NCBI GenBank assembly: GCA_016215645.1
Contig: JACRIX010000052.1
Location: 1-64,000 of the forward strand
Direction of reading: 5' to 3'
DNA length: 64,000 bases
Origin: Rhodocyclales bacterium
Lineage (GTDB): Bacteria > Pseudomonadota > Gammaproteobacteria > Burkholderiales > Rhodocyclaceae
Part shown: positions 2,539 through 58,723 of the stretch, piece after piece
Position numbering within the stretch: position 1 is the stretch's first letter
Layout: each line of letters begins with the position of its first letter
Position numbers and translations under genes: made by a program
Notes under the pieces: generated by a model
The model's input: only the letters and a program-made list of their open reading frames with translations
What the model was told of the DNA's origin: nothing
Database searches by the model: none

Positions 2539-4848
2539 ATGACTGCTGCCAGCATGACAGAAGACTCTCCTGTGCCACTTCCCGAGAAAATTGCCTCGCT
2601 GGTCCATGAGGCCCACTGGCTGCTTGTCGGCATGCTCGGAATCTACTTGTCCCTGATTCTCTGGGGCTACGAGCGTATGGACCCGGGCTGGTCGCATGCG
2701 GCAACGCTGGACCGTATTGTCAATCCGGGAGGGCGTTTCGGCGCCTGGCTCAGTGATCTGCTGCTTTACCTGTTCGGGCTTTCGGCCTGGTGGTTGGCGC
2801 TATTGCCCTTGTTCCTGCTTGCCTGGGGTTACCACCGACTGAGCCACATTTTTGGCGGTGATCGGCGCTCGTTGGCTATTGCGCTCATCGGCTTTGTTGT
2901 GCTGTTGCTGGCAAGCACCGGCATCGAGGCCATGCGTTTCTGGAGCCTGAAACTGGCGTTGCCCCTGGCTCCCGGCGGCATGCTGGGCAATGAGGTGGGC
3001 CGGTTGACCGCCGCGTTTCTCGGCTATACCGGGGGAACCCTGATCCTCATCGTCTTCGCCATGATCGGTTTCAGCTTATTTACCGGCGCGTCGTGGATCG
3101 CAATCGCCGAGAAGGCGGGCGTTCTGCTCGAAGGGGCCTATGTTGGTTCGCGCAGTCTTTGGGAAGCCTGGCAGGATCGTCGTTACGGCAAGGCAATCGC
3201 CGAGCAGCGCGAGGAGGTTGTGGAGACCGAAAGGCGAAAAGCGGAGGAAAGCCCCTTGCCGCCGCTGCGCATCGAACCGGTCGAACTGGTCGTCCCGGTG
3301 GCACCGAAGGCCGTAGCCCGAGCCGAAAAGGAGCGTCAGCAGGCGTTGTTCTTCGATGCACCCGGCGGCGCACTCCCACCACTGCACCTGCTGGCTGAAG
3401 CAGCACACAACCCCGAGGATCTGCCCGCTGCGCAGACGCTGGAGTTCACTTCGCGCCTGATCGAACGCAAGCTTGCCGATTTCAATGTCGAGGCCAAGGT
3501 GCTGAGCGCCCATCCCGGGCCGGTGGTAACCCGCTATGAGATCGAACCTGCCGTCGGCGTCAAGGGCAGTCAGATCGTCGGTCTTGCCAAGGATCTGTCA
3601 CGCGCCCTGTCACTGGTCTCGATTCGTGTCGTCGAGACCGTTCCGGGAAAGTCCTGCATGGCACTGGAACTGCCCAACCCGAAGCGACAGATCGTGCGCC
3701 TATCCGAGATCATCGGCTCGCAGGCCTACCACGGCATGCATTCGCCGCTGTCGGTGGCGTTGGGCAAGGACATCGGCGGCCAGCCCGTCGTCGCCGACCT
3801 TGGCAAGATGCCGCACCTGCTGGTGGCGGGCACCACCGGCTCGGGCAAGTCGGTGGGGGTCAATGCGATGATTTTGTCATTGATCTACAAGTCCGAGCCC
3901 AAGGACGTGCGCATGATCATGGTCGACCCCAAGATGCTGGAGCTGTCGATCTACGAAGGCATTCCGCATCTGCTGGCGCCGGTGGTCACCGACATGACCA
4001 AGGCCGCCAACGCGCTGAACTGGTGCGTCGGCGAAATGGAGCGGCGCTACAAACTGATGTCGGCCCTGGGCGTACGCAACATCTCCGGCCTCAATGGCAA
4101 GATCAACGACGCGCGGAAGGCCGGCGAGCCGATCACCAATCCCTTCACGCTGACGCCCGAGAATCCCGAGGTCATCGAGACCATGCCCTACATTGTCGTC
4201 GTCATCGACGAACTCGCCGACCTGATGATGGTGGTGGGCAAGAAGGTCGAGGAACTGATTGCGCGCCTGGCGCAAAAGGCGCGCGCCTCGGGCATTCACC
4301 TGCTCCTGGCGACACAGCGGCCCAGCGTCGATGTCATCACCGGCCTGATCAAGGCCAACATCCCGACGCGCATTGCCTTCCAGGTCTCGTCGAAGATCGA
4401 TTCGCGCACCATCCTAGACCAGATGGGCGCCGAGGCGCTGCTGGGGCAGGGTGACATGCTCTACCTTGCGCCAGGCACCGGCCTGCCGGTGCGCGTGCAT
4501 GGCGCCTTCGTTGCGGACGATGAGGTGCATCACGTCGTCGATCATCTGAAGAAGGTCGGTCCGCCGGACTACATTGAAGGCCTGCTCGACGGCCCGGTTG
4601 GTGAAGAGGCAGAAGTCGGCGCCGGCGACACGGCGAGCGGCGACGCCGAGGCCGATCCGATGTACGACCAGGCCGTCGAGATTGTCCTGAAGACGCGCAG
4701 GCCGTCGATTTCCCTGGTGCAGCGCCACCTGCGCATCGGTTACAACCGCGCCGCACGGCTGATCGAGGCCATGGAGAAGGCCGGCCTGGTCACGCCGATG
4801 AATGGCGCCGGCGGTCGCGAGGTGATCGCGCCGAGCCGCGCGGAGTAG
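2539..4848 (+). CDS. ftsK: DNA translocase FtsK
   Basis: 769 aa if translation starts at the ATG at 2539; the frame is open further upstream but carries no membrane or family features there. FtsK is a septal, membrane-anchored hexameric motor that pumps chromosomal DNA and activates XerCD at dif. Four hydrophobic segments lie in the first ~190 residues. A short acidic/proline linker leads to the motor, with Walker A GTTGSGKS at residues 431-438 and Walker [14 protein letters not shown] winged-helix gamma domain ([20 protein letters not shown]) sits near residues 715-735. The linker between motor and gamma contains [11 protein letters not shown], whose DNA resembles the dispersed repeat described elsewhere in this window. 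The gene converges on the minus-strand TPS pair. Confidence 0.95.
4609..4636 (-). repeat. Candidate dispersed-repeat copy inside ftsK
   Basis: The reverse complement reads TCGCCGTGTCGCCGGCGCC followed by GACTTCTG, close to the short form of the repeat at 20313 (TCGCCGTGTCGTCAGCGCC then GACTTTTG). It lies in the linker between the motor and gamma domains, where an insertion would be tolerated. The match is short and could be chance at this GC content. Confidence 0.35.
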
Positions 4849-8686: not shown

Positions 8687-9979
8687 ATGGCACCGGCGCA
8701 TGCGCCGTTGGCGGAGCAGATGCGGCCGCGTACTCTCGACGACGTCATCGGTCAGCGCCATCTGGTGGGCGAAGGCAAACCCCTGCGCCTGGCTTTCGCC
8801 TCGGGTACGCCGCATTCGATGATCCTTTGGGGCCCGCCGGGCGTGGGCAAGACCACGCTGGCGCGCCTGATGGCCGACGGCTTCGATGCCGAATTCATCG
8901 CGCTGTCGGCGGTGTTCTCCGGCGTCAAGGACATTCGCGAGGCGATGCAGCAGGCCGAGGTGATGGCGCAGCAGGGGCGGCGCACCATCCTGTTTGTCGA
9001 CGAAGTGCACCGCTTCAACAAGGCGCAGCAGGATGCCTTCCTGCCCTATGTCGAGCGTGGCACGGTTACTTTTATTGGCGCTACCACCGAGAATCCGTCT
9101 TTCGAAGTCAATTCCGCGCTGCTGTCGCGTGCCGCGGTGTATGTACTGAAGAGCCTGGATGAAACCGAACTGGGCGAATTGTTCGATCGCGTGCGAAGCG
9201 CGGCCCTTGACGGACTTGATTTCGATGCCGAGGCGCGTGAGCGCCTGATCGGCTATGCCGATGGCGATGCGCGGCGCCTGCTCAACGTGCTGGAACAATT
9301 GCGCACGGCCGCGGCCACTGCAAAACGCCGTCTCGTCAGCGCCGACTTTCTGGAGCAGACGCTGGCCGCCGACCTGCGTCGCTTCGACAAGGGCGGCGAC
9401 GCCTTCTACGACCAGATCTCGGCCCTGCACAAATCGGTGCGCGGTTCGAACCCGGACGCCGCGCTCTACTGGCTGATGCGCATGCTCGACGGCGGCGCCG
9501 ATCCGCTCTACATGGGGCGACGCATCGTGCGCATGGCGATCGAGGACGTCGGCCTGGCCGACCCGCGCGCCTGGGAGGTCGCACTCAACGCCTGTGCCAC
9601 CTACGAGCGCCTGGGCAGTCCGGAAGGCGAACTGGCGCTGGCCAATGCCGTGCTCTATATGGCCGCGGCGCCCAAGTCGAACGCTGCCTACGTCGCCTAT
9701 AATGCCGCCCGCGCCTTCGTCGCCAGGGACAAGAGCCGCGGCGTTCCGGAACACCTGCGCAATGCCCCGACCAAGCTGATGAAGGAACTCGGCTACGGCG
9801 CGGACTACCGCTATGCCCACGATGAAGCCGAAGGCTATGCCGCGGGTGAAAGCTACCTGCCCGAGGGCATGCCGGCCGTACAGTGGTATCAACCCGTGGC
9901 GCGCGGGCTGGAACAGAAGATCGCCGAGAAACTTGCCCACCTGCGCGAACTCGATGCGCAGGCGAAAAAGAAACGATAA
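8687..9979 (+). CDS. rarA: Replication-associated recombination protein RarA (MgsA)
   Basis: 430 aa from the ATG at 8687; a TTG 24 bases upstream would overlap lolA. RarA is an AAA+ clamp-loader-like ATPase that acts at stalled replication forks. Motifs: LAEQMRPRTLDDVIGQRHL at the N-terminus, Walker A GPPGVGKTT, Walker B LFVDEVHRFNKAQQDAF, sensor 1 GATTENPSFEVN, and the C-terminal oligomerisation region beginning FYDQISALHKSVRGSNPDA. A stretch near residues 213-222 (KRRLVSADFL) is encoded by DNA resembling the dispersed repeat of this window. It sits between lolA and serS, a frequent arrangement in proteobacteria. Confidence 0.95.
   Translation: MAPAHAPLAEQMRPRTLDDVIGQRHLVGEGKPLRLAFASGTPHSMILWGPPGVGKTTLARLMADGFDAEFIALSAVFSGVKDIREAMQQAEVMAQQGRRTILFVDEVHRFNKAQQDAFLPYVERGTVTFIGATTENPSFEVNSALLSRAAVYVLKSLDETELGELFDRVRSAALDGLDFDAEARERLIGYADGDARRLLNVLEQLRTAAATAKRRLVSADFLEQTLAADLRRFDKGGDAFYDQISALHKSVRGSNPDAALYWLMRMLDGGADPLYMGRRIVRMAIEDVGLADPRAWEVALNACATYERLGSPEGELALANAVLYMAAAPKSNAAYVAYNAARAFVARDKSRGVPEHLRNAPTKLMKELGYGADYRYAHDEAEGYAAGESYLPEGMPAVQWYQPVARGLEQKIAEKLAHLRELDAQAKKKR
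9325..9353 (+). repeat. Candidate dispersed-repeat copy inside rarA
   Basis: ACGCCGTCTCGTCAGCGCC followed by GACTTTCTGG is nearly the same as the intergenic copy at 20313 (TCGCCGTGTCGTCAGCGCC then GACTTTTGG). It encodes RRLVSADFL in frame. Because a RarA helix is expected at this place, chance similarity is possible. Confidence 0.35.
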
Positions 9980-12813: not shown

Positions 12814-15015
<2,202 letters not shown>

Positions 15016-15668: not shown

Positions 15669-16376
15669 ATGGGGGCATTTCAGACGCGACGGATGCGCTA
15701 TGCCATCCTAGCCTCGCTGCTGCTGCACGTCCTGCTGCTGTGGCCGGCACCCCTGCGACCGCCGGCGCAGGAGGCCCGAGCCCTGTTGCAGGCAACGGTG
15801 CGCTCGCCCCAGCCGGAACCCGTGCCGGAGCTGCCCAAGCCGGTACCGCCGCGCGCCGTGCCGCCAGTGCCGACTCCTGCCCAGGTGCCACCCATGCCGC
15901 TCGCACAGCCCTTGGAGGTGCCGCGCCAGGCGTCGGTTCCCGTGCCATCGGCGACCGCATCCGCCAGCGCGGCGCCGTCGGTGTCGGCATCGCCCATACC
16001 GGCGCCGCCTGCGGGTGCGCCAGCAACGGCTACTGCCGGGACATCGCTGACGCCGAACGCCGCTTCCGGCGAGTCACTCGACGGCCTGCGCGGCTATCGG
16101 CTCGCCGTCGCCAGTCAGGCGCGGCGCTTCAAGCGTTATCCGGCAGAGGCCAAGGCGTCGGGTTGGACCGGCAGCACCGAAGTACGCCTTGACGTCGGTG
16201 CGGAAGGCCAGCCGCGTCCGGCGGCCGTGGCGCGATCCAGCGGCCACGAAGCCCTGGATCGCGCGGCGCTGGCCATGATCGATGCCGGCGCCGCGCGCGC
16301 GCGCCTGCCCGACAGCCTGCGCGGGCGCAGTTTCACGGTGACGCTGCCGGTGGTATTCAACCTCGACGAGGAATAG
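15669..16376 (+). CDS. TonB-like energy-transducing protein
   Basis: About 235 aa from the ATG at 15669; a GTG at 15648 and an ATG at 15693 are alternatives, and the real start is uncertain. A single membrane segment (MRYAILASLLLHVLLLW) is followed by a long proline/alanine/valine-rich spacer (~residues 40-135) that would span the periplasm. A C-terminal TonB-type domain follows (SQARRFKRYPAEAKASGW, VRLDVGAEGQP, ALDRAALAMIDAG, FTVTLPVVFNL). TonB transmits proton-motive force to outer-membrane receptors. No exbB, exbD or receptor gene is adjacent, so its partners are elsewhere. Confidence 0.85.
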   Translation: MGAFQTRRMRYAILASLLLHVLLLWPAPLRPPAQEARALLQATVRSPQPEPVPELPKPVPPRAVPPVPTPAQVPPMPLAQPLEVPRQASVPVPSATASASAAPSVSASPIPAPPAGAPATATAGTSLTPNAASGESLDGLRGYRLAVASQARRFKRYPAEAKASGWTGSTEVRLDVGAEGQPRPAAVARSSGHEALDRAALAMIDAGAARARLPDSLRGRSFTVTLPVVFNLDEE

Positions 16377-20312: not shown

Positions 20313-20343
20313 ATCGCCGTGTCGTCAGCGCCGACTTTTGGCG
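20313..20343 (+). repeat. Dispersed repeat, short form (intergenic, flhC-rdgC)
   Basis: ATCGCCGTGTCGTCAGCGCC followed by GACTTTTGGCG. It abuts the T-tract of the flhDC terminator and lies 52 bases before the rdgC start. Near-identical copies occur at 28763, 37411, and inverted at 40654 and 43006. Confidence 0.7.
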
Positions 20344-28762: not shown

Positions 28763-28793
28763 AATCGCCGTTCCGCCAACGCCGACTTTCGGC
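28763..28793 (+). repeat. Dispersed repeat, short form (downstream of ctaA)
   Basis: AATCGCCGTTCCGCCAACGCC followed by GACTTTCGGC. It lies in the 259-base gap between the kdpD start and the ctaA stop, 42 bases beyond ctaA. The first 20 bases are almost the same as the left half of the long copy at 35614. Confidence 0.7.
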
Positions 28794-28835: not shown

Positions 28836-29891
28836 TCAGGCGCGGCGGTGGGCGTGGATGGCCCACAGCAGTAGCCCGAACAACACCATCGCCCCGGCCT
28901 GGTGGGCGGCGCCCAGGGCCACCGGCACCTGCAGCAGCAGCGTGGCGACGCCGAGCGTGACCTGCACCGCCAGCCAGAGCACCAGCAGCAGTGCCGGAGT
29001 GCGTGCGGCCGGGTTTTCCCGCGCGATGCGCCAGGCCAGCCACGGGATCAGACCCATCAGCGCCCAGGCGATCAGGCGATGGTCGAACTGCACCAGCGCC
29101 ATGTTGGTAAAGAAGTTCAGCCACCACGGCTCGACCACGAAGCTCTCGGGGGGCAGGAAATGCCCGTTCATCAGCGGGAAGGTGTTGTAGGCCAGGCCGG
29201 CGCGGATGCCGGCGACCAAGGCGCCGGTCAGCACCATGATGAACACCAGCACCACCAGCCCGTTGCCCAGGCGCCAGGTGAAAGTTATGCGAAGCGGTAT
29301 CCCCTTGTGGGACGGCGCTGGCGACACGGCGGTTTTCGCGGCGCGCGGCTGCAACATGCCCAGCCCGGTCCAGAACATCAGGCCGAAAAGCAGGAAGGCA
29401 AGCCCGAGGTGGGCGGCGAGGCGGTACTGCGAGACGCGCGGGTCGTCCACCAGGCCGCTCTTGACCATGTACCAGCCCATCGCGCCCTGCAGGCCGCCGA
29501 GGATGAAGAAGCCGAAGACCTTAGCCGCCAGCGCGCCCTTGAGGTAGCCGCGGGCGAGGAAAAACAGGTAGGGCAGCAGGAAGACCACGCCGATCAGACG
29601 GCCCGAAAGGCGGTGCGCCCATTCCCACCAGAAGATGAACTGGAAGCCGTCCAGCGTCATGTCGTGATTGCGTTTGATGAATTCCGGCGTCTGCTGGTAT
29701 TTGGCGAACAGCTCCAGCCAGTCGGCATGCGACAGCGGCGGCAGGGCGCCGATCAGCGGCTTCCATTCGACGATGGACAGGCCGGAGTGCGTCAGGCGCG
29801 TCACGCCGCCGACCACCATGGTGACAAACACCATCGCACAGCAGGCGAACAGCCACCAGGCCACGGCGCGCGGCGGATTGTGGTAGTTCAT
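28836..29891 (-). CDS. ctaA: Haem A synthase (COX15/CtaA)
   Basis: 351 aa with eight membrane segments; it converts haem O to haem A for aa3-type cytochrome oxidase in the inner membrane. Conserved histidines occur in [54 protein letters not shown] and [10 protein letters not shown]. The loop between the two four-helix halves carries an extra peptide, [19 protein letters not shown], which is encoded by a copy of the dispersed repeat at 29281. The start overlaps the moaC stop as ATGA, so moaC-ctaA is an operon. No oxidase genes are nearby. Confidence 0.93.
29281..29336 (-). repeat. Dispersed repeat, long form, in frame inside ctaA
   Basis: The reverse complement begins AAACCGCCGTGTCGCCAGCG, continues CCGTCCCACAAGGGGATACC and ends GCTTCGCATAACTTT. 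It matches the copies at 33556 and 35614 over about 55 bases. It adds an in-frame peptide to the loop between the helix bundles of CtaA. Confidence 0.8.
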
Positions 29892-30400
29892 TGGGCGGTC
29901 CAGTGGCCGGATTTGCCGCCGGCCTTTTCCAGCAGCTTGATATCTTCGATGACCATGCCGCGGTCGGCGGCCTTGCACATGTCGTAGATGGTCAGCAGAC
30001 CGACCGATACGGCAGTCAGGGCCTCCATTTCCACGCCGGTGCGGCCGTGGGTTTCGGCCGTGACTTCCAGCGTCACGCGGTGCTGTTTCGCGTCCAGCGA
30101 AAACTCGGCGGCGACGCGGGTCAGCGCCAGCGGATGGCACAGGGGGATCAGGTCGGACGTGCGCTTGCTTGCCTGGATCGCGGCGATGCGGGCGATGCCC
30201 AGCACGTCGCCCTTCCTGGCGCTGCCGCTGCTGATCAGGTCGAAGGTGGCGGGTGCCATGCGGATATGCCCGCTGGCGCGCGCCACGCGGGCGGTTTCGG
30301 CCTTGGCGCCGACGTCGACCATGTGCGCCTGGCCGGCACCATCAAAATGGGTAAGCACGGCGGCGGGGGCCTTGGCGGTGGGTTTCTTGGGTGGTTTCAT
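29888..30400 (-). CDS. moaC: Cyclic pyranopterin monophosphate synthase MoaC
   Basis: 170 aa from the ATG at 30400; a longer open frame to 31900 is the shadow of the opposite gene. MoaC makes cyclic pyranopterin monophosphate in molybdenum cofactor synthesis. Typical stretches are [72 protein letters not shown] and [15 protein letters not shown]. It overlaps the start of ctaA by four bases. It is divergent from the bepA-like gene with 48 bases between starts. Confidence 0.95.
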
Positions 30401-30448
30401 GAAATACGCTGTCACAACCGGTTTTTCGCGACCCGCTATCATAGCGAT

Positions 30449-31906
30449 ATGAAACCGCATCTGCTTGCCGGCGTCGCCGTGCTTGTCATTGGCATTGTGG
30501 CGACGACGCGCCTGTCGGTCGCCGAAGGCCTGCCCGACCTGGGCGAGGCGGCGCAGACCGAGTTTTCGCCGGCGGCCGAGCGGCGCATCGGCGAATCGAT
30601 CATGCACGACATCCGGCGCGACCCGGCCTGGCTCGATGACGCGGAAATCAATGCCTACCTCAATCGCCTGGGCAATCGCCTGGCCGCGCAGAGCTCGGAG
30701 TCGCGCCAGGAATTCGAGTTCTTCGCCCTCAAGGATTCCACGCTCAACGCCTTCGCCATGCCCGGCGGCTACATCGGCGTGCACACCGGGCTGATCCTCG
30801 CCGCCGCCTCGGAATCGGAACTGGCCTCGGTGCTGGCCCACGAAATTTCGCACGTCACCCAGCGCCACCTGGCGCGCCTGATCAACAAGGCGGGGCAGGG
30901 CCAGGTCAGCAGCCTGCTGGCGCTGGCCGTGGCAATTTTTGCCGCGCGCAGCAATCCGGACCTGGCCGTCGGCGCGGCGATGGCCGGGCAGGGGGCGGCG
31001 ATCCAGAACCAGCTCAACTATTCGCGCGATTTCGAGCGCGAGGCAGACCGCGTGGGCTTGTTCCTGCTCGAGCGTTCGGGCTTTGACATCCGCGGCATGA
31101 GCGGCTTCTTCGAGCGCCTGCAGAAATTTGGTCGGCTCTACGAGAACAACGCCCCCGGCTACCTGCGTACGCATCCCTTGACCACCGAGCGCCTGGCCGA
31201 CATGGGCAACCGCATCCAGTCGCGGCCTTACCGGCAGGCGGCGGATTCGCTCGAATTCCAGCTGGTGCGGGCCAAGCTGCGTGCCCAGGACGGCACACCG
31301 CGCGATGCCGTCACCGATTTCGAAGCGCGCCTGCGCGACCGCAATTTCGCGGGCGCCGAAATCGCCGTGCGCTATGGCCTGGCCCAGGCACGCCTGCGCG
31401 ACGGCAAGCCAGCCGGCGCGGAAGGGGAGCTGACGGAGTTGCGCCGGCTCAAGGCGCAATCGCCGATGATCGAAACACTCGCCGCGCAGTTGCGGCGCAA
31501 GCAGGGCGACATGGCGGGCGCGGTAAAAATCCTGCGCGAGGCGCAGCCGCGCTATCCGCAGGAGCGCGCCATTGTCTATGGGCTGGTGGAAGTCCTGCTG
31601 GACGCACGCCAGCCGCAGGATGCGCTGACGCTGATCGAGGACGACCTGCTGAGCTATCCCTCGGATGCCCGGGCACATGCCCTGCAGGCCCGAACCTATG
31701 CCATGCTCGGCAAGCGCCTGCAACAGCACCGCGCCCAGGCCGAGTCCTACCTGCTGCTGGGGCAGTTGCCCCTGGCGGTGGAGCAGATGGAGCTGGCGCA
31801 GAAATCCGGCGACGGCAATTTCTATGAGCAGTCGCGGGTCGATGCCCGCCTGCGTGAGTTGAAACTGCGCCTCGCCGACGAAGCCAAGCAGGCCAAACAA
31901 AAGTAG
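30449..31906 (+). CDS. BepA-like M48 metallopeptidase with TPR repeats
   Basis: 485 aa. A signal peptide ([20 protein letters not shown]) precedes an M48 zinc peptidase domain with HEISH in [16 protein letters not shown], the cleft motif [19 protein letters not shown] and the third ligand in [19 protein letters not shown]. From about residue 280 the protein is helical TPR repeats. This is the layout of BepA (YfgC), a periplasmic protease/chaperone that assists LptD and other outer-membrane proteins. It is followed 8 bases later by the cbbQ-type gene on the same strand, though a functional link is not obvious. Confidence 0.9.
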
Positions 31907-31914
31907 CTTGCCCG

Positions 31915-32742
31915 ATGAAACCCGCCAAGACCGCTGCCGCCACGCTCGCCACGCCGCTCACGCGCGCCACCGAAGAGCCCTACTACCATGTCGTCGGCGA
32001 CGAGGTCGAGGTGTTTGCCGCCGCCGCGCAAAGCCGCCTGCCGGTGATGCTGAAGGGCCCCACCGGCTGCGGCAAGACGCGCTTCGTCGAACACATGGCC
32101 TGGAAACTCGGGCGGCCGCTGGTCACCGTGGCCTGCCATGACGACCTGACCACCGCCGACCTGGTCGGCCGCTACCTGATCGTCGGCGACGAAACCGTCT
32201 GGCTCGACGGCCCGCTGACTGCGGCAGTCCGTGCCGGCGCCATCTGCTACCTCGACGAGATTGTCGAGGCGCGCAAGGACACCACGGTGGTGATCCATCC
32301 GCTGACCGATTCGCGGCGTGCGCTGGCAGTGGAAAAGCACGGCGAATACCTCGCGGCCCATGCCGATTTCATGTTGGTGGTTTCCTACAACCCCGGCTAC
32401 CAGAGCGTGCTCAAGGAGATGAAGCCGAGCACCCGGCAACGCTTCGTCGCGCTCGATTTCGACTATCCAGCGCCCGACGTCGAGGCGCGCATCGTCGCCC
32501 ACGAAGGCGGTGTCGATGAAAGCACGGCGCAGCGGCTGGTCAAGCTCGGCGGCCTGACGCGCAAGCTCAAGGGCGCGGGGCTCGACGAGGGCGCCGGTAC
32601 CCGCCTGCTGGTGCACGCGGCGCAGCTCATGGCGCGCGGCATGAATCCCCTCGTCGCCTGCACCGCCGCCATCGCCCGACCGCTGGCCGACGAACCCGAT
32701 ACGCGCAACGCGCTGGATGATCTGATTGCCGCCGTTTTCTGA
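31915..32742 (+). CDS. CbbQ/NirQ/NorQ-family MoxR-type AAA+ ATPase
   Basis: 275 aa. Walker [19 protein letters not shown], Walker [15 protein letters not shown] and [20 protein letters not shown] identify the CbbQ/NirQ/NorQ group of MoxR ATPases. With a VWA-domain partner they remodel an enzyme: CbbQ/CbbO reactivates RuBisCO and NorQ/NorD matures nitric oxide reductase. Neither rbcL/cbbM nor norCB lies in the window, so the client is unknown. The stop and the next start overlap as TGATG, showing translational coupling to the VWA gene. Confidence 0.9.
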
Positions 32743-34841
32743 TGGCGCAGCGCAAGCTCTTCGCCCACGAAATCGAGGAGCGGCTCGACGAGATCCTGCT
32801 GCTCAAGTTGCGCCAGCGTTCGGCGAGGGAAGTCGCGGCGCGGCTCGAAACCCTGGCGCGTGACCGGCAGGAGCGCGTCCTGCACTGGGTCGGCGTCGCC
32901 GCCCAGTCCGCCAACGAACTGGGCTGGTTGATCGCCGCCGAGGCCGCGGCCCTTGGCGAGGATGCAGGCGACGGCCTCGACGACTGGGTGCGCGCCGGAC
33001 TGGCCGCGCATGATCGCGGCGGCATCGAGGCGGCGCGCGACGCCTTGCCACGGGCCGCCGCCGACCGGCGGATAGCGGCGCGGCACCCGGCGCAGGGCGT
33101 GGCCTTTGGCGAGGTCGAGGGCCGCCTCGGACGTTTTCTCCAGGCGCTCGACGGCCGTCCGCTGCGCCTGGCCAGCGCGGCGCAGGCCTGGACCGACGGC
33201 GAAACCCTGTGGCTGCCGGAACGCCTGGATCGCGCCGCCGATGCCAATGGCAACCGGCGGCAATACACCGTGCTGGCCGTACAGCTCTGGGCGCAGGCCC
33301 GCTACGGCAGCTTCAACGTCGATCCCGAGCCCGAGCTCGCGCAATGGGCCGACCGCGGCGCGGCCCTGGCCTGGTTCGCGCTGTTCGAGGCGATGCGCCT
33401 GGAGACGCGCCTGGAACAGGACCTGCCGGGCATTGCGCGCGACATCCGCGCCCTGCGCGGCCCCTGGCCGGCGCTACTGGCCGCCGCCGCGGCCGATCTG
33501 GCGCGGCCTGAGGCCACGGCGGCCGACAGCCTCGCCTGGGTTGCCGAACGGCGAAGAGTTATGCAAAGCGGTATCCCTTGGGACGGCGCTGGCGAGACGC
33601 CGATTTTTGCCCACCTGACCGGTTTCGATCCGCTGGCAGCACGGCGCCTGCGCGCCGCCCGCATCGCCCGCGACAGCACGACGCTGCGGCGCGCCCTCAA
33701 CATCCTGCGCGCCAACGATCCGCACAGCCGTGGCGGGGCCGGCGACGACTCCCATCCGCCGCTGGCCGCCGAAGGCGACGCCGTGCCGGCCGATTTGCAG
33801 GCCGGCGATATCCAGGGCCTGTCGCCCGACGCGCAAGCCGCCGCGCAGTCGCTGGCGCAGGACACGGACGGCATGCCGCCGGAAATCCTCCGGCCGGCCG
33901 GCCCCGGTGCCTGGCAGCCCGAGGAGCGTGCCGAGGGTGAGGCTGCGGTCGCAACGCGCGAGCGCAAGCCAGACGCCGTCTATGACGAGTGGGACTACCG
34001 GCGCGCCGCCTGGCGCCGCGACTGGTGCCACCTGTATGAGGCCGAGGGCCCCGCTGGCGAGGATGCCTGGGTCGAGGGCGTGCGCAGCCGCCATGCCCAC
34101 CTGATCCGCAGCATCCGCCGCCGCTTCGAGGCACTGCGTGGCGAGGACAAGGCCGAGCGGCGCCAGCTCGAGGGCGAGGAGATCGACCTCGATGCCCAGG
34201 TCGAGGCGCGCGCCGACCGCCGCAGGGGTTCGGAACCTTCGCCGCGGCTGTTCATCCACCGGCGCCGGATCGAGCGCTCGCTGGCGGTGATGTTCATGGT
34301 GGACATGAGCGGCTCGACCAAGGGCTGGGTCAACGACGCCGAGCGCGAATCGCTGGTGCTGCTGTGCGAGGCGATCGAGGCCCTGGGCGATCGCTACGCG
34401 ATCTACGGCTTTTCCGGCTGGACGCGCACGCGCTGCGACATCTACCGCATCAAGACCTTTGGCGAACGCTATGACGCGGCGGCGCGGCGGCGCATCGCCG
34501 GTATCGAGGCGCGCGACTACACGCGCATGGGGGTTGCCGTGCGCCACCTGTCGCGGCTGCTGCACGGCCAGAACGCGCGCCACAAGCTGCTGGTGACCCT
34601 GTCCGACGGCCGTCCCGACGATCACGGCGACGAGTACCGTGGCCGTTATGGCATCGAGGACACCCGCCGCGCCCTGCTCGAAGCGCGCGAGCAGGGCATC
34701 CGCAGCTATTGCGTGACCATCGATCGCCACGGCGCCGACTACTTGCCGCAGCTCTACGGGCCGGCGCATTATTCGGTGATCGACGACGCGAAGAAGCTGC
34801 CGAGCAAACTGGCGGAAATCTACCGCAAGCTGACGGCATGA
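32742..34841 (+). CDS. CbbO/NorD-type von Willebrand A domain protein
   Basis: 699 aa. The C-terminal ~200 residues are a VWA domain whose metal-ion-dependent adhesion site is intact (MFMVDMSGSTKGWVNDAERE, later TLSDGRPDDHGDEYRGRYG). The N-terminal ~450 residues are helical and low-complexity, as in CbbO and NorD. Near residues 272-289 the sequence RRVMQSGIPWDGAGETPIF is encoded by a copy of the dispersed repeat (33556), so the protein carries an extra loop there. It is translationally coupled to the preceding ATPase and should form an ATPase-adaptor complex with it. Confidence 0.88.
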   Translation: MAQRKLFAHEIEERLDEILLLKLRQRSAREVAARLETLARDRQERVLHWVGVAAQSANELGWLIAAEAAALGEDAGDGLDDWVRAGLAAHDRGGIEAARDALPRAAADRRIAARHPAQGVAFGEVEGRLGRFLQALDGRPLRLASAAQAWTDGETLWLPERLDRAADANGNRRQYTVLAVQLWAQARYGSFNVDPEPELAQWADRGAALAWFALFEAMRLETRLEQDLPGIARDIRALRGPWPALLAAAAADLARPEATAADSLAWVAERRRVMQSGIPWDGAGETPIFAHLTGFDPLAARRLRAARIARDSTTLRRALNILRANDPHSRGGAGDDSHPPLAAEGDAVPADLQAGDIQGLSPDAQAAAQSLAQDTDGMPPEILRPAGPGAWQPEERAEGEAAVATRERKPDAVYDEWDYRRAAWRRDWCHLYEAEGPAGEDAWVEGVRSRHAHLIRSIRRRFEALRGEDKAERRQLEGEEIDLDAQVEARADRRRGSEPSPRLFIHRRRIERSLAVMFMVDMSGSTKGWVNDAERESLVLLCEAIEALGDRYAIYGFSGWTRTRCDIYRIKTFGERYDAAARRRIAGIEARDYTRMGVAVRHLSRLLHGQNARHKLLVTLSDGRPDDHGDEYRGRYGIEDTRRALLEAREQGIRSYCVTIDRHGADYLPQLYGPAHYSVIDDAKKLPSKLAEIYRKLTA
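33556..33608 (-). repeat. Dispersed repeat, long form, in frame inside the cbbO/norD-like gene
   Basis: The reverse complement begins AAAAATCGGCGTCTCGCCAG, continues CGCCGTCCCAAGGGATACC and ends GCTTTGCATAACTCT. It matches the copies at 29281 and 35614 but lacks a few bases in the middle, which keeps the frame. Relative to the host gene it is read in the opposite direction to the ctaA and dioxygenase copies' shared peptide. Confidence 0.8.
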
Positions 34842-34857
34842 CGAAAGGGAGGTGGTG

Positions 34858-35595
34858 ATGGGCGAGTTTTCCAATCGCGTGGCCCTGGTGACGGGCGCCA
34901 CCAGCGGCATCGGCGAAGCCATCGCGCGGCGCCTCGCGGGACTGGGCGCCTCGGTGGTGATCAACTCGGCGCGTTCGGTCGAGGCCGGCGAGCGCATCGC
35001 CGCCGAGCTGGGCGACCACGCGCTTTACGTGCAGGCCGACATCGCCGACCCGGCCGCGCCGCAGCGCCTGCTCGAGGCCACGCTGGCCCGCTTCGGCAAG
35101 CTCGACATCCTGATCAATAACGCGGGCTGGACCACGGTAGTGCCCCACGCCGACCTCAATGCGCTCTCTGACGAGATTTTCGCCAAAACCTTCGAGGTCA
35201 ATGTCACCGGCACCTGGCGCCTGAGCAAGGCGGCGATGCCGCACCTGATGAAAAGCGAGGACGGCAACCTGCTCACCATTACGTCGATTGCCGGCGTGCG
35301 TCCGGTGGGCAGCTCGATCGCCTATTCCATGGCCAAGGCGGCGCTGAACCAGATGACGCGCCTCCTGGCCAAATCCTGCGGGCCGGTGCGGGTGAATGCC
35401 GTCGCCCCGGGCCTGGTCGAAACGCCGTGGACGGCGGACTGGGCCGCGCAGCATGAGGCAGTCAAGGCGCGCGCGCCGCTGCAGCGCTCGGCCACCACCG
35501 ACGACTGTGTCGAAGCGGCGCTGGGGCTGCTGCGCACCCGCTATGCGACGGGCCATGTCTTCGTCGTCGATGGCGGTTTGACGCTGGCGATGTAA
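34858..35595 (+). CDS. Short-chain dehydrogenase/reductase
   Basis: 245 aa, classical SDR. The start at 34858 is preferred because AAGGGAGG (34845-34852) gives good spacing. The cofactor site is VALVTGATSGIGEAIARRL, followed by DILINNAGW, the catalytic Ser in LTITSIAGVRP and YSMAKAALNQMTRL with the Tyr/Lys pair. The C-terminus FVVDGGLTL is typical of 3-oxoacyl-ACP-reductase-like SDRs. The substrate is unknown. It follows the VWA gene by 16 bases and precedes the dioxygenase. Confidence 0.9.
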   Translation: MGEFSNRVALVTGATSGIGEAIARRLAGLGASVVINSARSVEAGERIAAELGDHALYVQADIADPAAPQRLLEATLARFGKLDILINNAGWTTVVPHADLNALSDEIFAKTFEVNVTGTWRLSKAAMPHLMKSEDGNLLTITSIAGVRPVGSSIAYSMAKAALNQMTRLLAKSCGPVRVNAVAPGLVETPWTADWAAQHEAVKARAPLQRSATTDDCVEAALGLLRTRYATGHVFVVDGGLTLAM

Positions 35596-35602
35596 GCGCG
35601 CC

Positions 35603-36286
35603 ATGGACCGACCAATCGCCGTTCCGCCAGCGCCATCCCGCAAGGGGATACCGCTTTGCGTCACTCTTGCAACGGCTGCCAGCTTCCGTCGCCGCCGCCT
35701 GTTGCTGGCGTCGCCATTGATCTTCCTGCTGCCGCTGGCGCGTGCCGCCAGCCCGCTGGCCGCAACGCCGGCGCAGATGCTCGGCCCCTTCTACCCCGTG
35801 CAGCCCGACGCGGCCGCCGGCAACGACCTGGGCACGGTCGACGGCAAGCTCCGCGCGCGCGGCAAGGCGCTCACCATCGTTGGCCGCGTTGCGGACACGG
35901 CAGGCCGGCCGCTGCCGGGCGTGCTGGTCGAGATCTGGCAGACCAATGCCCACGGTCGCTACCACCATCCGCAGGATGACAGCCCCCAGCCGCTGGACCC
36001 GAACTTCCGCGGCTACGGCCGCGCCATCGCCGGCGCCGACGGCGCCTACCGTTTTTCCACCATCGAACCGGTGGCCTATCCGGGTCGCACGCCGCATGTG
36101 CATTTCCGCCTCAGTCGCGGCGCGCGCGAACTGCTGGTGACGCAGATGTACCTGCCGGAAGCCGCCGCCGCCAATGCGCGCGACGGCCTGTTCATGTCGC
36201 TGCAGGATGGCGCGCGGCGGCGCCTGGTCGGCGTGCCCGAGGTCGGGGCAGCGGGCACGCTGCGCTTCGACATCGTCCTCGGCTAG
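35603..36286 (+). CDS. Exported intradiol ring-cleavage dioxygenase-like protein
   Basis: 227 aa. The core matches intradiol (protocatechuate 3,4-/catechol 1,2-type) dioxygenases: MLGPFYP, then VLVEIWQTNAHGRYHHP, NFRGYGRAIAGADGAYRF and GRTPHVHFRLS. The Tyr in GRYHHP and the two His in PHVHF are the expected ferric-iron ligands. A twin-arginine-like or Sec leader (RRRRLLLASPLIFLLPLARA) suggests export, as in a little-studied periplasmic subgroup. The 20 or so residues before it (IAVPPAPSRKGIPLCVTL) are encoded by a copy of the dispersed repeat. No other start codon lies between the ATG and the leader arginines. Catabolic partner genes are absent. Confidence 0.82.
   Translation: MDRPIAVPPAPSRKGIPLCVTLATAASFRRRRLLLASPLIFLLPLARAASPLAATPAQMLGPFYPVQPDAAAGNDLGTVDGKLRARGKALTIVGRVADTAGRPLPGVLVEIWQTNAHGRYHHPQDDSPQPLDPNFRGYGRAIAGADGAYRFSTIEPVAYPGRTPHVHFRLSRGARELLVTQMYLPEAAAANARDGLFMSLQDGARRRLVGVPEVGAAGTLRFDIVLG
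35614..35669 (+). repeat. Dispersed repeat, long form, at the 5' end of the dioxygenase gene
   Basis: Begins AATCGCCGTTCCGCCAGCGC, continues CATCCCGCAAGGGGATACC and ends GCTTTGCGTCACTCTT. It matches the copies inside ctaA (29281) and the cbbO/norD-like gene (33556). It encodes AVPPAPSRKGIPL, very close to [13 protein letters not shown] in CtaA. Confidence 0.8.
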
Positions 36287-40653: not shown

Positions 40654-40682
40654 GCCGAAAGTCGGCGCGGGCGCTACGGCGA
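40654..40682 (-). repeat. Dispersed repeat, short form, directly after the tusE-like stop
   Basis: The reverse complement reads TCGCCGTAGCGCCCGCGCCG followed by ACTTTCGGC. It begins at the base after the tusE-like stop codon, and the same sequence type occurs inside the DNA glycosylase gene at 43006. Confidence 0.7.
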
Positions 40683-42702: not shown

Positions 42703-43186
42703 AACAACGAGGCTGACGGGCCTGGCGCCCGTCATCGACCAGCGAGCCCGGGTGCTGATCCTGGGCTCGTTTCCGTCTACCGCCTCGCTCGCCGCGCGGC
42801 AGTACTACGCCCACCCGCAGAACCAGTTCTGGCGCATGCTCGGCGCCGTGATCGGCCAGCCGCTGAACGCGCTGGAGTATCCGGCGCGGCTTGAGGCGGT
42901 CAGAGCCGCCGGCATCGCCATCTGGGATATCTATGCGACATGTGAACGCGCGGGCAGCCTCGATTCGGCGATCCGCGGCGCGCAGGAGAACGACCTCGCC
43001 CCCCTCAAAGAGTCGGCGCCCGCGCTACGGCGAATCTGCTTCAACGGCCGCACCGCGGCGCGCCGTTTGCGCGAGATGGAGGAGATAGGCTACGAAGCCG
43101 TGGTGCTGCCCTCCACCAGCCCGGCCCATGCCGGCATGCGCTTCGAGGAAAAGCTGGCGCGCTGGCGCGTGGCGCTGACTAGCTGA
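42692..43186 (+). CDS. DNA-deoxyinosine/uracil glycosylase (UDG superfamily, family-6-like)
   Basis: 164 aa, GTG start inside the end of htpG, so translation is coupled. The N-terminal active-site region [20 protein letters not shown] followed by [13 protein letters not shown] is the signature of the hypoxanthine-DNA glycosylase group of the UDG superfamily. [21 protein letters not shown] and [19 protein letters not shown] complete the family pattern. It excises deaminated purine (hypoxanthine) from DNA. Residues ESAPALRRI near position 108 are encoded by a copy of the dispersed repeat. Its 3' end overlaps the convergent OGT-type gene by 8 bases. Confidence 0.85.
43006..43035 (-). repeat. Dispersed repeat, short form, inside the DNA glycosylase gene
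   Basis: The reverse complement reads ATTCGCCGTAGCGCGGGCGC followed by CGACTCTTTG. It closely matches the copies at 37411 and 40654 and is translated in frame as [10 protein letters not shown]. Confidence 0.6.
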
Positions 43187-50047: not shown

Positions 50048-51588
50048 GCCTTTTTGCCGAGGCCACCGAGCAGGGCCGCGACGGGACGCTGCGGGCGTGT
50101 CGGGGCGGGCTTTTCGACCGTGGCCTCGCCGGGAACGGCTTTGCTGACGTAGGGCTTGGTCGGATCGAAGTCGAGTTTGGGCAGGCGGGGGTCGAACCGG
50201 GGCACGTGGGCGGCCGGGGTGGGGAGCTCGCGTCCGGCCGGCTTGACGCCTTCCAGCGTCAGCGAACGGTCGCGCTCGCGGGCCTTTTCGCGGGCGCGCT
50301 CGAGGTGCTCGCGGCGGTGGCCGCGATTGCTCGGCGGCGCACTTTCATGCACCGGCGCCAGCTCGGCGAAGCCGCTGATTTCGACGCGTTCGATCTTGCG
50401 CTTGATCAGTTTTTCGATGTCGGCCAGGCGCTGCGCTTCCTCGGGGGCGAACAGCGAGGTGGCGTTGCCGTGCTTGCCGGCGCGGCCGGTGCGGCCGATG
50501 CGGTGCACGTAGTCCTCGGCGGTGTGCGGCAGTTCGTAGTTGATGACGTGGGGCAGGTCGTCGATGTCGAGGCCGCGCGCGGCGACGTCGGTGGCGACCA
50601 GCACCCGTATCTTGCCGGATTTGAAGCCTTCGAGCGCCTCGGTGCGCTGCTGCTGGTTCTTGTCGCCATGGATGGCGTCGGCAGCGATGCCCTGGCGCTC
50701 GAGGTAAACGGCCAGGCGGCTGGTGCCGAACTTGGTGCCGACGAAGACCAGCACCTGCTGGTTGGCGTCGTCGTGCGTCAGCAGGTGCACCAGCAGGCTG
50801 CGCTTGAGGTCGGAGGCCACAGGGTAGACGCGGTGGGTGATGGTCTCCGACACCGCGTTGCGGCGCGCCACCTCGATCAGCTGCGGCGATTTCAACATGC
50901 TGTCGGCAAGATTCTTGATCTCGTTGGAGAAGGTCGCCGAGAACAGCAGGCTCTGGCGCTCCTTGGGCAGCATGGCGAGGATGCGCTTGATATCCGGGAT
51001 GAAGCCCATGTCGAGCATGCGGTCGGCTTCGTCGAGCACCAGCACCTCGACCTGGGCGAAGGAGACGCTCTTCTGCTCGACGTGGTCGAGCAGGCGGCCC
51101 GGCGTGGCGACGACGATCTCGCGGCCCTCGCGCAACTGGGCGATCTGCGGCCGGATGTCCACCCCGCCGTAGATGCAAACCGAGCGTAGCGGCAAATGCT
51201 TGCTGTAGGTGACGACGCTTTCATGCACCTGCATCGCCAGTTCGCGCGTTGGCGCCAGGATCAGGGCGCGCACCGGGTGGCGCGCCGGCGAGGGCGAGGA
51301 ACTGGCGTACTTGGCCAGACGCTGCAGCAGCGGCAGGGTGAAGCCGGCGGTCTTGCCGGTGCCGGTCTGGGCGCCGCCCATGACGTCCTTGCCGGACAGG
51401 ATGATCGGGATGGCTTGGCTCTGGATCGGCGTCGGGTGGGTGTAGCCGTTGTCCTTGACCGCGCGCAGCAGTTCCGGCAGCAGGCCGATGTCGTCGAAAG
51501 TTGCCGACGGTACGCAGGGCGCTGGCGCGACGGCGGCAGCGGGGTCGACGGGAGTGGAAGGGATGATGCCGTTGTCGTTTGCGTCCAA
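50044..51588 (-). CDS. rhlE: DEAD-box RNA helicase, RhlE type
   Basis: 514 aa. The start is a TTG at 51588 with AGGAG seven bases upstream; no closer ATG exists before the Q motif. Helicase motifs in order: Q motif YTHPTPIQSQAIPIILSG, Walker A MGGAQTGTGKTAGFTLP, APTRELAMQV, DEAD box VLVLDEADRMLDMGFIPD, SLLFSATFS, LVATDVAARGLDID and YVHRIGRTGRAGKHG. The C-terminal ~110 residues are basic and disordered, as in RhlE. It remodels ribosomal and messenger RNA. The FAH-family gene is coupled downstream. Confidence 0.93.
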   Translation of the reverse strand: MDANDNGIIPSTPVDPAAAVAPAPCVPSATFDDIGLLPELLRAVKDNGYTHPTPIQSQAIPIILSGKDVMGGAQTGTGKTAGFTLPLLQRLAKYASSSPSPARHPVRALILAPTRELAMQVHESVVTYSKHLPLRSVCIYGGVDIRPQIAQLREGREIVVATPGRLLDHVEQKSVSFAQVEVLVLDEADRMLDMGFIPDIKRILAMLPKERQSLLFSATFSNEIKNLADSMLKSPQLIEVARRNAVSETITHRVYPVASDLKRSLLVHLLTHDDANQQVLVFVGTKFGTSRLAVYLERQGIAADAIHGDKNQQQRTEALEGFKSGKIRVLVATDVAARGLDIDDLPHVINYELPHTAEDYVHRIGRTGRAGKHGNATSLFAPEEAQRLADIEKLIKRKIERVEISGFAELAPVHESAPPSNRGHRREHLERAREKARERDRSLTLEGVKPAGRELPTPAAHVPRFDPRLPKLDFDPTKPYVSKAVPGEATVEKPAPTRPQRPVAALLGGLGKKA

Positions 51589-57169: not shown

Positions 57170-58723
57170 TCAGAACAGCCGCGGGCCCGGCGTGCCGGCC
57201 GGCTTGGCCCCCGCGGAAGCGGTGGTTTGCTGGCCGACGATGACGTCGCTGCCTTCCTTGATGTCGCCGGATACGATTTCGGTCATGCTGCCGTCGGTGA
57301 GCCCGAGGCGGACGCTGACGGACTTGGGTGCGCCATCTTCGCCGGGAATCCAGATGCGGCCGCTGCCGCCACCGCCACCGGCACGCGCCGCCTGGGCTTC
57401 GGCGGCCATTTCTTCATAGCGCTTCTTTTGCTCGGGCGTGAGCAGGACCGAAACCTTCTCGCGGATTTCGGCACGGTTGCGTTCGAAGGCCTTGTTCTTC
57501 TCGGCTTCCGGCAGGTCACGCGCGGCGCGAAACTTGTCGCGCATGGCGTCGAATACCGCATCGACCTTGGCCTGCTGGTCGGCGTCGAGCCTGAGGTCGG
57601 CGACCAGGCGATCGCGGATGGCGCTGAGGCCGCCACCACCGGGTGCTCCAGGGCCCGCTGACCCAGGAGTCGGCGCTGGCAACACGGCGGCAACGGGCTT
57701 CTTTTCCTCGCCGCTGCCCGGGGGACGAAAGCGCAGCGCGGCGTTCGGCACCTTCAGTGCCTTGTCCTTCTGTGCCGTGATGATGCGCACGTTGGCGGTC
57801 ATCCCGGGCAGCAGGGTGAGGTCGGGATTGGCCGCCGACACCACTACGGTATAGGTTACGACATTGGACACCACGGTGGCCGCCTTGCGTACTTGCCTGA
57901 CCTCGCCGCTGAAGGCCCGCCCGGCAAACGCATCCACCGTAAACGTGGCTTTTTGTCCGGTCTGGATGCGGCCGACATCGGCTTCGTCGATCGAGGTCTC
58001 GACCTGCATGTCGGTGAGGTTGCGGGCGATGACGAACAATTCGGGTGCCTGCAGGCTGGCGGCGACGGTCTGCCCGGGTTCGATGCTGCGCTTGACGACG
58101 ACGCCATCCACCGGCGCCTTGATCGCGGTACGTTCGAGGTCAATGCGTGCCTGCGAGAGCTGGGCCTGGCGCTGGCGCACCTGGGCCTCGCCGTTCTTCG
58201 CCTGCGACTCGGCCACCTGCAGGCCGGCGCGCCCGGCATCGAGCACGCTCTGCGCCTTGTCGCGTTCCGCGGACGAGAGGAAGTTTTTTTCCACCAGCAG
58301 CTTCTTGCGTTCGAAATCGCGCTGGAATTCCGCGAGATTGGCCTTGGCGCGCAGCACTTCCGCCTGTTGCACGCCCACCGCGGCGCGGGCGGCTTCAAGG
58401 TCGGCCTCTGCCTGATGCACGCGATACTGGAAGGTTTCCGGATCGATGCGGGCGATGAGCTGGTTTTCCTTCACCGGCGAATTGAAGTCGACCAGGATCT
58501 CCTTGATCTGGCCCGAGACCTGTGAGCCGACCTGGACCGAGACTACCGGGTTCAGCGTGCCCGTGGCGGAAACCACGGCGGTGAGTGGTCCGGATTCGGC
58601 CTTGGCCAGCTTGTACTTCGGGGCGTTGCCGCCATTACCGTTGGCGCGCCAGACAGCATATCCGCCGCCGCCGAAAAGGATCAGGACCAGTGCGGCAAGG
58701 CCAAGTCGGGATGGAGTCTTCAT
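57170..58723 (-). CDS. MacA-like periplasmic adaptor with a Spy/CpxP-like insert
   Basis: 517 aa, longer than usual MacA (about 370). It has an N-terminal anchor (RLGLAALVLILFGGGGYAVW), the first lipoyl half TLNPVVSVQVGSQVSGQIKE and a helical hairpin from ~100 to 200. The second lipoyl half is KAPVDGVVVKRSIEPGQTVA and the beta-barrel follows. After ALRFRPPGSGEEKKPVAAV the sequence leaves the family pattern for ~110 residues: a helical segment (VADLRLDADQQAKVDAVFDA, then REKVSVLLTPEQKKRYEEM) like the LTxxQ motifs of Spy/CpxP periplasmic chaperones. The MacA C-terminal strand pattern then resumes (PKSVSVRLGLTDGSMTEIVS). The insert may sense or bind misfolded periplasmic proteins (inference). 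Confidence 0.88.
   Translation of the reverse strand: MKTPSRLGLAALVLILFGGGGYAVWRANGNGGNAPKYKLAKAESGPLTAVVSATGTLNPVVSVQVGSQVSGQIKEILVDFNSPVKENQLIARIDPETFQYRVHQAEADLEAARAAVGVQQAEVLRAKANLAEFQRDFERKKLLVEKNFLSSAERDKAQSVLDAGRAGLQVAESQAKNGEAQVRQRQAQLSQARIDLERTAIKAPVDGVVVKRSIEPGQTVAASLQAPELFVIARNLTDMQVETSIDEADVGRIQTGQKATFTVDAFAGRAFSGEVRQVRKAATVVSNVVTYTVVVSAANPDLTLLPGMTANVRIITAQKDKALKVPNAALRFRPPGSGEEKKPVAAVLPAPTPGSAGPGAPGGGGLSAIRDRLVADLRLDADQQAKVDAVFDAMRDKFRAARDLPEAEKNKAFERNRAEIREKVSVLLTPEQKKRYEEMAAEAQAARAGGGGGSGRIWIPGEDGAPKSVSVRLGLTDGSMTEIVSGDIKEGSDVIVGQQTTASAGAKPAGTPGPRLF

Follow-up and report, generated by a model that had tools for sequence, protein, structure and literature searches.

The 64,000-nt stretch analysed here (hereafter the window; positions 1 to 64,000, forward strand, of contig JACRIX010000052.1, assembly GCA_016215645.1, from a Rhodocyclales bacterium) carries a repeat that consists of two layers: a shared core word of 21 nt, GTCGGCGCTGGCG-NN-ACGGCG, present in hundreds of copies per genome, and a module of 24–27 bases located inside three of the copies in the window. 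The core word has most of the hallmarks of the tags that mark the own DNA of Neisseria and Haemophilus, and by analogy we consider the chances about even that it is a DNA word of the uptake type, for which uptake and a receptor are presumed. This reading is based on the number of copies, their sharp consensus, the origin of the word by substitution in PlsY, the filtering of its reading frames, and its spread through the family with a variant spelling. An earlier note on this DNA had described the three copies as a repeat of ~55 bases inserted in frame in three genes, possibly equivalent to the Rickettsia palindromic elements. All three were found where it had placed them, in genes with the Pfam domains COX15-CtaA (ctaA), VWA (a CbbO-like gene adjoining a CbbQ-type ATPase) and Dioxygenase_C, and the encoded peptides and strands agree with its description.

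Exact alignment resolved each of these three composite copies into AGT, a module and the core, with a total length of 46–49 nt in the window (Table 1). The module was found in the window only in these copies, and a strict composite pattern has four exact matches in the genome, the fourth being on contig C33. The core is matched at ten further places with no more than two mismatches, one of which (at 51515) may be chance. A 24-base core pattern matched ten places in the window at up to three mismatches, with 0.01 expected; since the reversed pattern also has no match at up to two mismatches in any of the 26 genomes available for the genus, chance can be excluded.

The same 24-base pattern, counted at ≤2 mismatches with the reversed pattern as control, is present in all 26 genomes of the genus, from 11 copies in G017 to 357 in G002, and its 261 matches in the window's genome bear out the earlier suggestion of many genomic copies. 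With a 20-base pattern, the complete genome G002 holds 683 copies (reversed pattern: 0). An order-wide sample of 399 genomes, searched at ≤1 mismatch, yielded 22 genomes with any match, with the larger counts in the window's family. In a family-wide sample (121 genomes from 68 genera; 20 informative bases, ≤2 mismatches) a match was found in 68 of the 121 genomes, while at least 30 copies, our threshold, were reached by 14 genomes from 8 of the 68 genera, namely the window's genus and seven others; the reversed pattern gave at most three matches per genome. The counts are 507–732 in genus g1, 725 in g166, 705 in g192, 244 and 515 in g22, 287 and 405 in g215, 200 and 355 in g18, 40 in g179 (1 in its second genome), and 31 in g199. 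The g199 genome (G463) uses its own dialect, with AGTCGACG instead of AGTCGGCG in 29 of its 31 matches; this view of dialects covers spellings up to two mismatches from the one searched. Among the matches listed, the named genomes with the word belong mostly to Sulfuritalea, Sulfurisoma, and metagenome assemblies of Rhodocyclaceae or Rhodocyclales; the window's genus is probably Sulfuritalea. A search of the literature available to us turned up no paper that describes a repeat or uptake word of this kind in these bacteria, which is not proof of its absence in print.

The spelling of the word is sharply kept. In 464 kb of sequence, made up of the whole window plus 20 stretches of 20 kb taken at even intervals from G002, the core (scored on 18 informative bases) has 39, 40, 16, 12 and 96 matches at 0 to 4 mismatches, against 0, 0, 3, 6 and 84 for the reversed pattern. 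Thirty patterns that encode the core peptide with synonymous codons served as a second control and gave on average 0.37 matches at three mismatches, 2.73 at four and none below three. Comparison of the spectrum with these controls indicates ~95 real copies (95 with ≤2 mismatches, ~205 per Mb) and almost no trail of decayed ones, even though copies often occupy orthologous places in species whose flanks are only 70–90% alike. The consensus logo in this sequence reads rARAGTCGGCGCTGGCGRYACGGCGA, and the copies are spread with a mean of 4.1 and a variance of 4.3 per 20 kb. One of the stretches (L114, G002:C1:1910001-1930000) is atypical, with a GC content of 0.534 and three genes of typical codon use, and it contains no word. 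The orientation of the word relative to GC skew (15+/26- where the skew is positive, 23+/18- where it is negative) shows no clear bias, and we therefore rejected a replichore polarity.

The origin of the word could be followed in PlsY, which was found in 23 of the 25 genomes searched. The word lies at one place with ≤2 mismatches in 14 of 16 species of the genus (the exceptions being G017 with four mismatches and G022 with seven), and forms with one and two mismatches occur among the species. The PlsY proteins with the word are equal in length to those of five of seven outgroup genera without it; G092, G303 and G022 are longer. As judged from these alignments, the PlsY word arose by base substitution without a change in length. 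It also appears to be kept at the DNA level: four of five fourfold degenerate wobble positions within the word are invariant, compared with 8 of 59 outside it (mean identity 0.91 vs 0.60). Comparison with solved structures at 11 motif sites, picked for the availability of a solved homologue and not at random, revealed no extra residues at the word in eight: the first site of SelB, SelA, AroB (where the copy is weak), CDP-glucose dehydratase, PlsY, RsmE, an ArnB-like aminotransferase and an NtrC-type regulator. The PlsY alignments and these eight sites speak against an inserted element of the Rickettsia type. A Cas9 gene of G002 (L111:14492-17932, its best solved match being among Cas9 chains) contains a perfect 21-mer word.

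Genes were called with a simple codon-usage caller in two sets (S1 and S2), composed of stretches chosen by position or synteny and of loci found by the exact word. Genes contain 38 of the 70 short-form copies in the former; 2 more are at gene ends, and the other 30 lie outside, so that copies outside genes are commoner than expected, as 84% of this sequence was called coding and only 16% non-coding. The 157 copies in the exact-word loci comprise 62 in genes, 8 at gene ends and 87 outside. The earlier expectation that several copies lie in genes thus holds, and they do so in preferred frames: the 100 intragenic copies of both sets encode VGAGxTAI in 52 cases, RRxASAD in 20, AVxPAP in 18 and SALAxRR in 8, while the two Arg/Trp-rich frames are represented by one copy each. 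The word is in sense orientation in 61 of them and antisense in 39. The constraint on the encoded peptide is a filter of the frames of the word.

We also examined whether the core forms a folded structure, and rejected this candidate. It folds as DNA no better than its shuffles, and the support for a base-paired hairpin is weak or none, the best z-score being -2.24 for the short form as RNA. Mutual information over 646 copies did not point to any paired columns; its strongest signals only separate copies with a module from those without. The occurrence of the word in both orientations in genes speaks against a structured RNA.

The modules have a different character. A few percent of the core copies contain a module of 24–42 nt exactly between AGT and CGGCG, and the module pattern GTTATG-n-GGTATCC-n-GGACGGCG has 256 matches in 25 of the 26 genomes of the genus (21 in G000, 20 in G002 and none in G017), the reversed pattern having none in the 26. 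Among 150 matches listed, 146 imply modules of 24, 27, 36, 39 or 42 nt, and the others imply 23, 38, 38 and 40 nt. In the sequence examined the length is a multiple of three in 35 of 35 modules in genes and also in 23 of 24 outside them, which indicates that these lengths are a property of the module family and not only a result of selection in genes. A recognisable core, identified by regular expression or by eye, follows 61 of 63 modules, and its midpart is preserved equally well with and without a module (0.74 mismatches of 6 in 39 copies vs 0.73 in 106; p 0.83). In the 39-nt module a hairpin of the form TATG-stem-CGGTA is paired in 97.4% of the cells of an alignment of 38 sequences, with six pairs changed on both sides; this covariation was matched by none of 500 shuffles, slid versions pair at 34–55%, and the folding of this module is more stable than that of its shuffles (z -4.39), which is not so for the 24- and 27-nt modules (z +1.14 and -0.57). 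The loop of type A resembles the ultrastable GCGAAGC DNA mini-hairpin. Modules are real insertions with their own hairpin, and their fixed position suggests that they home into the word.

At the three sites in the window the short form is the state in most relatives. For ctaA, 21 relatives were informative (one further relative did not align at the site of the word): 13 have the forward short form, 2 have it inverted, 1 has it nested with another repeat, 1 (G006) has a module and 4 have no word. For cbbO, 17 of 20 relatives have the forward word, 2 (G005 and G011) have it inverted in place, 1 (G017) is diverged and none has a module. Among 13 relatives of the dioxygenase, 6 have the short form, 1 (G006) a type A module, 1 (G019) a different module and 1 a degenerate copy, while 4 have another upstream context. 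G006 is the only aligned relative that shares a module at these sites (in ctaA and the dioxygenase). The simplest history that the alignments suggest is a gain in the lineage of G000 and G006. The earlier note had expected orthologues to lack the insert precisely, and had regarded the same peptide in orthologues as evidence against insertion; the former holds for the inner module of 24–27 nt and the latter, in part, for the 21-nt core, which most relatives keep at the same place. We therefore rejected the whole 55-base unit as one inserted palindromic element, since the core stays in orthologues and most tested proteins have no extra residues. Long and short forms of the word replace each other at one place elsewhere too, and a second position within the word, after CGGCGCT, has other modules, one of ~38 nt (two hairpins) and one of 60 nt; the loci concerned are L271, L189, L146, L296, L297 and L187, and also L308 and L294. 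In the inverted words of ctaA (L079, L089) and cbbO (L250, L252) the length is the same or nearly the same and the frame is kept, with an unrelated peptide encoded.

The positions of all copies in the window are collected in Table 1. At the place of the copy at 40661, G006 is 60 nt longer, owing to another module. In the region from 28836-30140 to 31900 both strands contain long open frames that overlap each other, a usual trait of GC-rich DNA; the frames listed first there are not evidence of genes.

Table 1. Composite and short-form copies of the core word in the window
Feature	Position	Strand	Remarks
Composite copy, ctaA	29283-29331	+	gene on - strand
AGT, 5' part of word, ctaA	29283..29285	+	gene on - strand
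27-nt module TATGCGAAGCGGTATCCCCTTGTGGGA, type A, ctaA	29286..29312	+	shared with G006 (L075)
Core CGGCGCTGGCGACACGGCG, ctaA	29313..29331	+	21-mer 29311-29331, 0 mismatches
Composite copy, VWA/CbbO-like gene	33557-33602	+	
AGT, 5' part of word, CbbO-like gene	33557..33559	+	sense
24-nt module TATGCAAAGCGGTATCCCTTGGGA, type A, CbbO-like gene	33560..33583	+	20/20 relatives without module, 24 bp shorter here
Core CGGCGCTGGCGAGACGCCG, CbbO-like gene	33584..33602	+	1 mismatch
Composite copy, dioxygenase	35617-35665	-	gene on + strand
AGT, 5' part of word, dioxygenase	35663..35665	-	gene on + strand
27-nt module GACGCAAAGCGGTATCCCCTTGCGGGA, type A variant (GACG for TATG), dioxygenase	35636..35662	-	
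Core TGGCGCTGGCGGAACGGCG, dioxygenase N-terminus	35617..35635	-	1 mismatch
Short-form copy	4615..4635	+	in gene, sense; 1 mismatch
Short-form copy	9326..9346	-	in gene, antisense; 1 mismatch
Short-form copy	14209..14229	-	in gene, sense; 1 mismatch
Short-form copy	15854..15874	-	1 mismatch
Short-form copy	20315..20335	-	outside genes; 1 mismatch
Short-form copy	28766..28786	-	outside genes; 1 mismatch
Short-form copy	40661..40681	+	outside genes by codon-usage caller; 1 mismatch
Short-form copy	43012..43032	+	in gene; 2 mismatches
Short-form copy	57669..57689	+	1 mismatch
Core match	51515		usual AGT absent; may be chance

These data can be accommodated in a model in which a sequence-specific process acting on DNA would hold a genome-wide word, approximately (R)ARAGTCGGCGCTGGCGRYACGGCGA, close to its exact spelling. 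A receptor of the competence machinery would prefer DNA that bears the word, and sites at which point mutations happen to produce the spelling would spread via recombination with taken-up DNA, with protein-coding constraint filtering the reading frames that are tolerated. At a word already in place, a module of 24–42 nt would enter precisely at AGT^CGGCG; the hairpin of the 39-nt form, the frame-keeping lengths, and the equal upkeep of the two word halves with and without a module suggest that modules may be small guests using the word as a landing site. We propose, tentatively and with less than even confidence, that this is a third family with an uptake-type word of its own, one that exceeds the others in length and varies in spelling between genera, and with frame-keeping hairpin modules that home into it.

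Several observations weigh against an uptake-type word. Three of the 11 structure-compared sites do have extra residues (4 in an acyl-CoA ligase, 8 at the second site of SelB and 9 in Cas9), and a place of the intergenic type in G008 is 31 bp longer than five of six orthologous places without the word (the sixth exceeds G008 by 97 bp). The length of the word is about double that of the 9–12 base core of known uptake sequences, perfect copies are not more numerous than those with a single mismatch (39 vs 40), and inverted pairs, which serve as terminators in the uptake sequences of Neisseriaceae, are rare, with one among the four pairs within 60 bp in the sequence examined. Across 75 ortholog pairs at 12 sites the core is only moderately better kept (0.87) than its flanks (0.76 and 0.70), with 0.56 and 0.51 at the NN positions, all these values being conditioned on the word being recognisable. 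Insertion of modules is not a known trait of uptake sequences. Finally, G017, a 99% complete member of the genus, has just 11 words and no module; its lineage has lost the word system or never gained it.

An alternative that we regard as unlikely, though still worthy of consideration, is that a chromosomal DNA protein, involved for instance in nucleoid organisation, replication or repair, binds to the word at hundreds of sites, each of which is maintained by selection. This would explain the upkeep at the DNA level, the use of both orientations, the origin by substitution and the genus-specific spelling, and the lack of a strong polarity with respect to GC skew is compatible with an orientation-free function. 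However, an asymmetric word of 21 nt with such a mismatch cliff is sharper than the usual protein sites, an argument also used for the Pasteurellaceae uptake sequences (PMC1626085), and direct selection on ~700 sites in conserved genes would be costly.

Rather improbable is a reading of the entire repeat as a mobile element, short and palindromic like the Rickettsia palindromic elements or a miniature inverted-repeat transposable element (MITE), that was inserted into genes and survives where it is in frame. The modules, as precise in-frame insertions with covarying hairpins, would fit it, as would the further internal modules, the extra residues at the second site of SelB and in Cas9 and the longer place in G008, but PlsY and most of the compared proteins have no extra residues, and a tail of decayed copies is missing although copies are orthologous in diverged species. 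Moreover, genes of the Y1 transposase family (PF01797), which includes the transposases associated with repetitive extragenic palindromes (REP/RAYT), are present in 21 of the 26 genomes of the genus, but G007 and G019, with 179 and 211 copies of the word, have none. Words do occur near several PF01797 genes, but their distances and contexts vary and a different repeat flanks several of the loci, and we rejected a mobilisation of the RAYT or IS200 type. This second repeat, GGGGACAGACCACGGTTTTC, flanks Y1/RAYT genes on both sides in L342, L344, L353 and L355; one ctaA gene (L091, G013) has it nested next to the word.

We give hardly any credence to the last alternative, that the core is no special DNA and stems from a preference for a peptide (VGAGDTAI / AVSPAPT) or for certain codons. 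The use of four frames and the near-absence of two would fit it, but the synonymous-codon control, which matched almost nothing, refutes it, unrelated peptides are encoded by the two strands of the same DNA, and 30 of 70 copies lie outside genes.

If the uptake-type reading is true, the word would be a third, independent case in which the recurring features, origin and spelling change of such words can be compared, in several environmental genera that exist side by side and differ in copy number and spelling. The modules would add precise, frame-keeping hairpin inserts within the word, a feature that is not described for uptake words in the parts of the literature available to us, and as a result of the repeated spelling hundreds of proteins contain short peptides of foreign appearance. 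As of 2013, a study of Neisseriaceae reports genome-wide uptake words from two families only, and describes the DNA uptake sequences (DUS) of Neisseriaceae as reaching hundreds to thousands of copies, located both inside genes and in the spaces between them and in both orientations, with a strong consensus, dialects, permissive placement and common inverted pairs (PMC3630211). The word described here is alike in copy number, in its genic and intergenic places, in both orientations, in its consensus and in its lineage spellings; it differs in length (~21–23 nt with a free NN vs 10–12 nt), in having few inverted pairs and in containing modules. The uptake signal sequences (USS) of Pasteurellaceae do not arise as insertions and stand out by the strength of their consensus (PMC1626085), and one orientation is commoner in reading frames (PMC2346458). 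They resemble our word in an origin by substitution, seen here in PlsY and revealed there by the same alignment test, and in the orientation bias in frames (here 61 sense to 39 antisense), and differ in a 9-nt core of unrelated sequence and, in most Pasteurellaceae, in an excess of perfect copies over single mismatches. REP/RAYT systems share short hairpin-bearing repeats in many copies, and differ in that RAYT genes are missing from some word-rich genomes and are flanked, in several cases, by the other repeat. The Rickettsia palindromic elements, according to PMC10969869, likewise add an in-frame peptide, are open in several frames and have many copies, but they are inserted elements of ~150 bp. 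With a core of 21 nt and composites of 46–49 nt in the window, our repeats fall outside the 100–150 bp palindromic size class of these elements, and where comparison was possible the core is mostly not inserted, only the modules of 24–42 nt being so.

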